From Afipia sp. (GTDB lineage Bacteria > Pseudomonadota > Alphaproteobacteria > Rhizobiales > Xanthobacteraceae): a stretch of 64,000 nt of DNA. The translations under genes and the position numbers were made by a program. Below the pieces are notes generated by a model. The model did not search any database. It worked only from the letters and a program-made list of their open reading frames with translations, and was not told the origin of the DNA. Each line of letters begins with the position of its first letter. Position 1 is the first letter of the stretch. Positions 30,709 through 45,490 of this stretch are shown here, in pieces. The stretch spans positions 371,162 to 435,161 of the forward strand of contig JANINQ010000001.1 in NCBI GenBank assembly GCA_024508675.1. The letters are read 5' to 3'.

Positions 30709-30873
30709 CTCGTGTGGTGGTTCGCAAGTCCGCATTGCTTTTGCAGCACACTCTTGTGCGGACTTGCGAACCAGAACCACACGAGAATTATTAGTTCCCA
30801 GGGTCCTTTTGAATCCGAAGTTCGCTCAGGAGTGTGCTGCAAAATAAAGCGAACTTCGGATTCAGGACACTGG
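30709..30873. other. Twin-hairpin element, copy 1 (complementary loops)
   Basis: H1: CTCGTGTGGT+GGTTCGCAAGTCCGCA / 22-nt loop / TGCGGACTTGCGAACC+aga+ACCACACGAG. H2: CCAGGGTCC+ttt+TGAATCCGAAGTTCGCT / 21-nt loop / AGCGAACTTCGGATTCA+GGACACTGG. Loops pair over 18 nt (ttttgcagcacactcttg / caggagtgtgctgcaaaa). Confidence 0.9.
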
Positions 30874-35060: not shown

Positions 35061-35187
35061 TCTCACCTCTCCCCGTTTACGGGGAGAGGTCGGATCGCTC
35101 TTACGATCCGGGTGAGGGGCGTTTGAAAATTCGAGTGATCTAGGTGGCCCCTCACCCCAGCCCTCTCCCCGCCGGCGGGGAGAGGGA
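35061..35187. repeat. Dispersed palindromic repeat, type D (CCTCTCCCCG..CGGGGAGAGG)
   Basis: cctctccccgtttacggggagagg and ccctctccccgccggcggggagaggg flanking gtgaggggc/gcccctcacc. Confidence 0.75.
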
Positions 35188-42813: not shown

Positions 42814-44211
42814 GTGAACTCTTCACCAAACGCATCATTGTCGCCGTCGCAAAAATCAACCGCATCCGGATTGCTCGATCAGACCGCTTTGAGCGAACTC
42901 GCGCAGCGTCTTGTCGAAGCCGCGAAGCGCGCGGGCGCGGATGCCGCGGATGCCATTGCGGTGCGCGGCGTGTCGCAAGGCGTTGAAATCCGCGAAGGCA
43001 AGGTTGAGGAATCCGAGCGATCAGAAGGTGACGACATCGGCCTGCGTGTGTTTGTCGGAAAACGACAGGCAGTGGTGTCGAGCAGCGACATCGGCGGCGA
43101 TGTTGCAATACTTGCCGAGCGCGCGGTCGCGATGGCGAAGGTGTCGCCCGACGATGAATATGTCGGTCTCGCCGATCCGGCGCTGCTGGCCAGACAGTTT
43201 CCTGATCTCGATCTGCTCGATCCGCAGATGCCGTCTGTCGCTGAACTCGAGCGGCGCGCGCTGGAAGCGGAAACTGCGGCGCTGGCGGTCAAGGGTGTGT
43301 CGAAGTCCGGCGGGTCATCCGCCTCGTCCGGCATCGGCGGCATGGTGCTTGTGACATCGACCGGCTTTCACGGATCGTATCTGCGATCGAGCCAGAGCGT
43401 CTCAGCCGTGGCGATTGCCGGTGAGGGCACCGGCATGGAGCGTGATTACGACTTCACCTCCGCGATCCATGGCTCCGATCTCGAACCGGCTTCGAGTGTT
43501 GGCAAGCGTGCGGGCGAGCGCACCGTGGCGCGGCTTAATCCGCGCAAGGTCGCGACCTGCAAGGCGCCGGTGGTGTTCGATCCGCGCGTCTCGAATTCCC
43601 TGGTGGGCCATCTGGTCGGTGCGGTGAACGGTGCCTCGATCGCGCGCAAGACCAGCTTCCTGAAAGATCGTCTCGGTCAGCAACTGTTCGATAAAAGTAT
43701 CCGTATCATTGACGATCCGTTGCGCGTGCGCGGGATGCGTTCGCAGGCGTTCGATTCCGACGGTGTCGCGACAAAGAAACTCGCCATCATTGACGAAGGC
43801 GTGCTGACCACATGGCTGCTGGATTCTGCGACCGCGCGTGAACTCGGCATGGCCACAACGGGTCACGCCCATCGCGGCGTCTCGTCATCGCCGTCCCCGG
43901 GTCCGTACAATCTTCATCTTGAAGCGGGCTCGGTATCGCCGGAGGACCTGATCTCCGACATCAAGGATGGGTTCTACGTCACCGACCTGATCGGCTCCGG
44001 CGTCAATGGCGTGACCGGTGATTACAGCCGCGGCGCCGCCGGCTTCTGGATCGAGAACGGCAAGCTCACCTATGCGGTGAGTGAAGTGACCATCGCGGGT
44101 CATCTGCTTGAAATCTTCAAGGCGATGGTTCCGGCCAACGATCTGACATTCAAGTACGGCGTCAACGCGCCGACCGTTCGAATCGGGGAATTGACGATTG
44201 CTGGACGCTGA
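42814..44211 (+). CDS. pmbA: TldD/PmbA family metalloprotease-like protein
   Basis: LVEAAKRAGADAADAIAVRG, GVNGVTGDYSRGAAGFWIENGKLTYAVSEVTIAG. Confidence 0.92.
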   Translation: MNSSPNASLSPSQKSTASGLLDQTALSELAQRLVEAAKRAGADAADAIAVRGVSQGVEIREGKVEESERSEGDDIGLRVFVGKRQAVVSSSDIGGDVAILAERAVAMAKVSPDDEYVGLADPALLARQFPDLDLLDPQMPSVAELERRALEAETAALAVKGVSKSGGSSASSGIGGMVLVTSTGFHGSYLRSSQSVSAVAIAGEGTGMERDYDFTSAIHGSDLEPASSVGKRAGERTVARLNPRKVATCKAPVVFDPRVSNSLVGHLVGAVNGASIARKTSFLKDRLGQQLFDKSIRIIDDPLRVRGMRSQAFDSDGVATKKLAIIDEGVLTTWLLDSATARELGMATTGHAHRGVSSSPSPGPYNLHLEAGSVSPEDLISDIKDGFYVTDLIGSGVNGVTGDYSRGAAGFWIENGKLTYAVSEVTIAGHLLEIFKAMVPANDLTFKYGVNAPTVRIGELTIAGR

Positions 44212-45016
44212 TACCGAGATCGCTCATGCGGCGCTGACGCGCGACGCCGCTCTGCTCGAAGATGTGGTGCGGGAGGCGGGGGCGCTGGCGCTCGGCCTGT
44301 TTCGTACCGAGCTGAAGTCCTGGATCAAGGGAAAGTCGTCGCCCGTTTCGGAAGCCGACATCGCGGTGAATGACCTGATCGAGGCACGCCTGCGCGCGGC
44401 GACGCCGGACTATGGCTGGCTGTCGGAGGAAAGCGCCGACGATTCGGTGCGGCTTGGAAAATCGCTGACATGGATCGTCGATCCGATCGACGGCACCCGG
44501 GCCTATCTGGAGCGCCGGGACGACTGGTCGGTCTCGATCGCGCTGGTTGCCAATGGCATGCCGGTTCTGGGCGCGGTGTTCGCGCCGGCCAGCGGCGAAT
44601 TTTTTTTCGCAACGCGCGGGCAAGGGACCAGACTCAACGGCGCACCGGTGGCGGCGGCCCCGGGCGCGGCGATCAATTTTCCAAAAATTGCCGGGCCGAA
44701 GCCGCTGGTCGAGCGTCTTGGCGGCATGAAAGAGGGCGAAAGCCTCTATCCGCGGATCGGCTCACTGGCGCTGCGGCTGGTCAAAGTGGCGGAAGGGCGG
44801 CTCGATGCCGCATTCGCAGGCGGGAACAGCCGTGACTGGGACCTTGCAGCGGCCGACTTAATCGTGCACGAAGCGGGCGGGGAAATGACCTCACTGGCCG
44901 GCGAGCGTCTGGTTTATAATCAAACCGATGTTCGCCACGGATTGCTGGTGGCGGCGGGGCGTGCGCGGCACGCGCATATCGTGAAACATTTTCGGGAAAA
45001 CCCGATTCCGTGGTGA
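44198..45016 (+). CDS. Inositol monophosphatase / CysQ-family 3'(2'),5'-bisphosphate nucleotidase
   Basis: WLSEESADD, WIVDPIDGTRAYLERRDDWSVSIAL, WDLAAADLIVHEAGG. Confidence 0.9.
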   Translation: MLDADTEIAHAALTRDAALLEDVVREAGALALGLFRTELKSWIKGKSSPVSEADIAVNDLIEARLRAATPDYGWLSEESADDSVRLGKSLTWIVDPIDGTRAYLERRDDWSVSIALVANGMPVLGAVFAPASGEFFFATRGQGTRLNGAPVAAAPGAAINFPKIAGPKPLVERLGGMKEGESLYPRIGSLALRLVKVAEGRLDAAFAGGNSRDWDLAAADLIVHEAGGEMTSLAGERLVYNQTDVRHGLLVAAGRARHAHIVKHFRENPIPW

Positions 45017-45044
45017 TTGCGAGCATGCTTTTTGCTTGAGTTCA

Positions 45045-45213
45045 CTCGTATCGCCTATTGGAAGCTCCTGCGGCAGCAAGCTGCGATTCTCGTTCAGGAG
45101 CTTCCAATAGATAGCGATACGAGAATCATAAATTTGCTCGTGTCCCTTTGGCTCTGACATTCGTAAAAGAATTCGCTGCGATATGATACGAATGTCAGAG
45201 CCGGGACACGAGC
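45045..45213. other. Twin-hairpin element, copy 2
   Basis: H1: CTCGTATCGC+CTATTGGAAGCTCCTG / 24-nt loop / CAGGAGCTTCCAATAG+ata+GCGATACGAG. H2: GCTCGTGTCCC+ttt+GGCTCTGACATTCGTA / 21-nt loop / TACGAATGTCAGAGCC+GGGACACGAGC. All four stems perfect. Confidence 0.92.
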
Positions 45214-45241
45214 CGGTCCTTGGTTTTAGGAAAGCACCCTT

Positions 45242-45490
45242 ATGTCCGAAACTGTGCAACCGCAGTTGCTTCACCTTGTCATCGGCGGCGAGCTTCTCGA
45301 CCTCGATCATGTGACATTCAAGGATCTCGACAAGGTCGAGATCGTGGGACTGTTCCCGAATTACGCGACCGCCTATGCGGCGTGGAAGGGCAAGGCGCAG
45401 CAGACCGTCGATAACGCGCACATGCGTTATTTCATCGTCCATCTCCACCGGCTGCTCGATCCGGGCCAAGACACGAAATCTTCCACTTGA
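45242..45490 (+). CDS. DUF4170-type small protein
   Basis: MSETVQPQLLHLVIGGELLDLDHVTFKDLDKVEIVGLFPNYATAYAAWKGKAQQTVDNAHMRYFIVHLHRLLDP. Confidence 0.8.
   Translation: MSETVQPQLLHLVIGGELLDLDHVTFKDLDKVEIVGLFPNYATAYAAWKGKAQQTVDNAHMRYFIVHLHRLLDPGQDTKSST

Follow-up and report, generated by a model that had tools for sequence, protein, structure and literature searches.

Twin-hairpin elements in the window

The window analysed here, a 64,000-nucleotide stretch of an Afipia sp. genome, contains two elements built from paired hairpins. The element at 45045-45213 (copy 2) lies between an inositol-monophosphatase-family gene and a DUF4170 gene, and the element at 30709-30873 (copy 1) lies upstream of an MFS transporter gene. 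Each consists of about 165 nt of hairpins with no gene of its own, and is arranged as a half-unit (H1), a linker and an inverted half-unit (H2). The E-values below derive from a covariance model that was built from 20 half-units and included these same halves in its training set.

30709-30785, plus strand: copy 1 H1, half-unit of type c, with a GAA bulge at 30774-30776
30786-30797: copy 1 linker, AATTATTAGTTC
30798-30873, minus strand: copy 1 H2, inverted half-unit of type a, with a TTT bulge at 30807-30809; its outer arm matches IS630 termini (type-a consensus arm)
44198-45016, plus strand: inositol-monophosphatase-family gene
45045-45123, plus strand: copy 2 H1, half-unit of the rare type d (E = 6e-15)
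45045-45048, plus strand: left outer foot CTCG, a CTAG-type insertion-site foot (TCAG or TGAG at the empty sites of relatives)
45045-45054: outer arm of H1
45055-45070 and 45095-45110: inner stem of H1
45071-45094: loop of H1 (24 nt)
45111-45113: ATA bulge of H1, on the 3′ strand
45114-45123: inner foot of H1
45124-45135: AT-rich copy 2 linker between the halves, AATCATAAATTT
45136-45213, minus strand: copy 2 H2, inverted half-unit of type b (E = 3e-22)
45147-45149: TTT bulge of H2, on the 5′ strand, in the inner arm
45166-45186: loop of H2 (21 nt)
45209-45212, plus strand: right outer foot CGAG, complementary to its own inner foot
45242-45490, plus strand: DUF4170 gene

Copy 2 folds with a predicted energy of -101 kcal/mol (z = -10.4 against 200 shuffles), and copy 1 is similarly stable (z = -10.1). 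The stem sizes and bulges given for copy 2 in the preliminary description are confirmed: H1 has stems of 10 bp and 16 bp with the ATA bulge, and H2 has 11 bp, the TTT bulge, 16 bp and the 21-nt loop. The description also rightly assigned one architecture to both copies, which form a single family with the bulge positions kept. However, the stems that it called unrelated are homologous, as the half-units of the two copies share 62-75% identity and the one covariance model matches all four halves (E = 6e-15 to 3e-22, with the training overlap noted above). Nor is all of the pairing perfect, since the H2 foot of copy 1 is mispaired (GGGTCC against GGACAC).

Two neighbouring features are distinct from these copies. 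At 35066-35185, the window holds two close CCTCTCCCCG...CGGGGAGAGG palindromes, a separate REP-like repeat. In addition, the locus of genome G018 that is syntenic to window positions 45017-45241 (L241) carries a different element within this intergenic space; it belongs to the A-b type and sits at another position.

A large family of heterodimeric elements

Both window copies are members of one non-autonomous mobile family with elements of about 165 bases. The family is large and apparently unnamed, and occurs in Afipia and other Rhizobiales; we found no published description of it in the open-access literature. The genome-wide, structure-based search that the preliminary description had proposed yielded 22 pairs and two singles in the host genome, as covariance-model matches among the best candidates (up to 150 per genome). 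One single (L283) reads as a deletion derivative and the other (L284) as a weak remnant. With the same model and candidate number, all 18 other Afipia genomes searched gave matches. Across the order, where the best 16 candidates per genome were scored and absences are weak, matches occurred in at least 50 of 298 genomes and at least 27 of 123 genera. Named records with the family include A. massiliensis, A. birgiae, A. broomeae and Pseudorhodoplanes, and plasmid relatives occur in Aminobacter, Martelella, Rhizobium and Roseibium. The phages searched gave no match, and the plasmids searched with the window element itself gave a single match at chance level.

The half-unit (about 76 nt) consists of a 9-11 bp outer stem, a 3-nt bulge, an inner stem of about 16 bp and a loop of about 22 nt. 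An AT-rich linker of about 11 nt (mostly 8-13 nt in the family) joins one unit to an inverted unit, H1 and the reverse complement of H2 being the same unit. The bulge is AAA in 141 of 182 cases and is located on the inner arm, which adjoins the linker. Bulges face the linker in 87 of 92 adjacent hairpin pairs, and the remaining five are miscalls or tandem junctions. The preliminary description had considered that the two loci might be unrelated, degenerate IS or REP remnants without conserved bulges; they are indeed IS-related, as described below, but the bulge is preserved.

About six types of stem, homologous to one another, can be distinguished (a/A, b, c, d, e and f). Of the 124 elements parsed, the a-c combination accounts for 79, A-b for 17, e-f for 12 and a-e for 7, and like-with-like pairings of halves are essentially absent. 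Single hairpins are also seen (L283:1504-1579 and L279), with a 5′ arm of one type and an outer 3′ arm of another; these are apparently internal deletions of a twin element.

Insertion sites

Where do these elements insert? The comparison of syntenic loci, also suggested in the preliminary description, revealed otherwise empty sites of about 4 nt in relatives for both window copies and for many others. At the copy 1 site, the closest relative (G013) lacks the element and reads CTAG, and the copy 2 site is empty in at least six relatives. Commonly, a net 4 nt replaces the element together with both feet. These tetranucleotides often conform to YTAR and include CTAG, CTAA, TTAA and TTAG; the central TA is present in about half, and some sites lack it (CTGG, TCAG). 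At filled sites, the feet often deviate from the sequence of the empty site, and the target duplication may be TA or 4 bp.

The insertions range from species-specific to older ones, as some loci are filled in several species. Within the host genome, no two copies exceed 88% identity, and therefore none looks recent. At one locus (L069, L339, L340 and L341), the insertion between a short gene and the start codon that follows it (lysA-like by eye) is common to four Afipia genomes, and is therefore old and tolerated there. Elsewhere (L133:1497-1825), twin-hairpin elements of two different types lie end to end with one CTAG in common, as if one had inserted into the foot of the other.

The outer arms match IS630 termini

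Most stem types correspond to the terminal repeats of IS630-family elements. When plasmids were searched with the type-a arm, it matched the ends of IS630-annotated elements in Roseomonas (24 of 25 positions), Rhizobium (22 of 25) and Komagataeibacter (both ends). The matches begin at CTAG with exact spacing, and both ends match in Komagataeibacter and Sphingobium. NCBIfam assigns the Roseomonas protein to IS630 (276.6 bits, cut-off 100). The only match of the type-c arm is an IS630 end in Azotobacter. The b, e and f arms found no IS630 end in plasmids, the e- and f-like ends coming only from the IS630 relatives in Rhizobiales genomes, which bear a-, e- or f-like ends. Among 35 IS630 loci, 20 match at 0.72 or above, as compared to 0-1 with shuffled arms. 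For types b and d, the searches gave no matching IS630 end. One IS630 locus (L383) has one end nearest to e (tied with f) and the other nearest to f, which suggests that the two halves of an element may correspond to the opposite ends of a single kind of IS.

The correspondence is confined to the outer arms, which match IS630 ends in register at 18-24 of 25 positions, while the inner arms with TTT match at only 10-15 of 28. Since the inner arm with its 3-nt insertion lacks an in-register match, it is probably disabled as an end.

The IS630 elements with matching ends reside in genera other than Afipia. The DDE_3 domain (PF13358) was not found in the host genome (G000), the complete, high-copy genome G012 or G013, and the ends of the IS630 copies in G018 and G316 are different; no partner IS630 transposase with the ends of the element was found in the Afipia genomes. 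A partner in the same genome is usual for an IS630-derived MITE, and is not required of relic MITE families. As no matching IS630 was seen in the host genome, the family may now be immobile there.

Pairing of the arms and alternative explanations

The preliminary description took the diverged stems as a sign of structure-level selection or stem diversification, and proposed a count of compensatory pairs. In 150 aligned matches, in which both strands of some hairpins are included, 26 of 26 pairs have two-sided changes. The stems thus diverge yet stay paired, as it had noted, and much of this signal is between-type difference, with each type inherited as a pair. Orthologous loci are more informative on changes after insertion: 334 pairs contain 15 two-sided Watson-Crick changes, as compared to 1.9 expected under independence. 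Among the 35 changed pairs, 20 are one-sided, comprising 6 G-U, 8 A-C and 6 others (G-U 40 and A-C 28 of 3166 in the wider alignment). Furthermore, 62 of 94 non-CTAG outer feet have a complementary inner foot. Stem pairing therefore both decays and is restored after insertion. The restoration without a G-U preference favours DNA-level templating between the arms over steady RNA selection, and gene conversion by other copies could contribute to the excess at orthologous sites.

A structured RNA or mRNA-processing element, with stems kept by RNA-structure selection, would account for the very stable folds, the ubiquitous two-sided changes and the placement of copy 2 between co-directional genes. 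Nevertheless, we consider it improbable: at orthologous sites, G-U is not preferred over A-C among the unpaired states, so that selection for an RNA-like structure is not the most fitting interpretation, and one-sided decay is frequent. The presence or absence of the element among related species and its CTAG-like insertion sites also argue against it, and an Rfam search returned no family above its gathering score, with only sub-threshold miRNA models. It is even harder to believe that a kissing interaction between the H1 and H2 loops defines the function. The two loops of copy 1 do contain a 15-nt stretch of exact complementarity, but this follows from the halves being inverted homologues, and loop similarity within elements does not exceed that of permuted same-type pairs (p = 0.07 for a-c, 0.43 for A-b and 0.92 for e-f). 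Transposition in the manner of REPINs or BIMEs, in which a Y1 RAYT transposase moves two inverted REPs as hairpins of single-stranded DNA, fits the inverted, bulged-hairpin pair with its tetranucleotide foot and short linker, and the covariation of the feet resembles guide-target pairing. This, too, is quite unlikely, as the Y1_Tnp domain (PF01797) is missing in 18 of 21 Afipia genomes, the host and G012 among them, which excludes a RAYT as the general partner, and the outer arms match IS630 ends. Moreover, REPIN units of 20-40 nt carry GTAG or CGTC at one end (PMC3733652), in contrast to the CTAG-type feet on both sides of units of about 76 nt.

Relation to known repeats

Among the closest parallels are IS630-family MITEs such as RUP and Correia/NEMIS, which are short, geneless, intergenic and multicopy, have IS630-type terminal repeats and a TA-containing target, and can nest. 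The Afipia element shares these features, with a central TA at about half of its empty sites. It departs from them in having four terminal repeats rather than two, folded as a pair of hairpins, a bulge of fixed size in each inner arm, and halves of different type. RIME1 of Rhizobium (about 108 bp) likewise combines two palindromes in one intergenic element, and is smaller. REPINs and BIMEs resemble the element in their inverted pair of bulged hairpins with a linker, and REPIN heterodimers occur (PMC3733652), but the Afipia hosts mostly lack a RAYT, and the element has CTAG feet on both sides, double the unit size and IS630 ends. Palindromic repeats named Br-REP1 and Br-REP2 are known from Bradyrhizobium, in the same bacterial family as Afipia, and a larger Br-REP2-containing element has been mentioned for Afipia without data (PMC5082802). 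The published Br-REP1 and Br-REP2 consensus sequences have no sequence similarity to the twin-hairpin elements.

Proposed mechanism

Because of the empty sites, the match of the outer arms to IS630 termini and the absence of Y1/RAYT, we propose that the family is an IS630 (Tc1/mariner-type)-derived MITE of a four-repeat, twin-hairpin, heterodimeric kind, and put the probability of this explanation as a whole at roughly 0.86.

Origin: Each outer arm would be an IS630-like terminal repeat starting with CTAG-TG. Each inner arm would be an inverted copy of the adjacent outer arm with a 3-nt insertion, seen as the bulge.

Insertion: An IS630 transposase acting in trans probably inserted the element by its outer ends at a CTAG-like (YTAR) target. 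The 3-nt insertion would spoil the inner arms as transposition ends, and with the outer ends alone in use, the pair would move as one unit.

Maintenance: The pairing of the arms may be kept up at the DNA level, with one arm serving as the repair template for the other while the DNA forms a cruciform or a replication hairpin. Unlike halves would persist, since identical halves would form a long, unstable palindrome.

A more specific version seems doubtful to us, namely that the arms are rewritten from each other after insertion and that the folded four-repeat form is the substrate of an IS630-type transposase, with the 3-nt bulge choosing the end arms. If it is true, then the bulge decides which arms act as ends.

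With the IS630-derived explanation, a widespread Rhizobiales repeat, unnamed as far as we found, gains an origin and a testable mechanism. Strong compensatory change, commonly attributed to selection on RNA, can also come about in mobile palindromes of DNA, which makes it a pitfall for RNA searches based on structure. The fixed bulge of the inner arm would be a simple, testable device that lets a four-ended element move as one unit.
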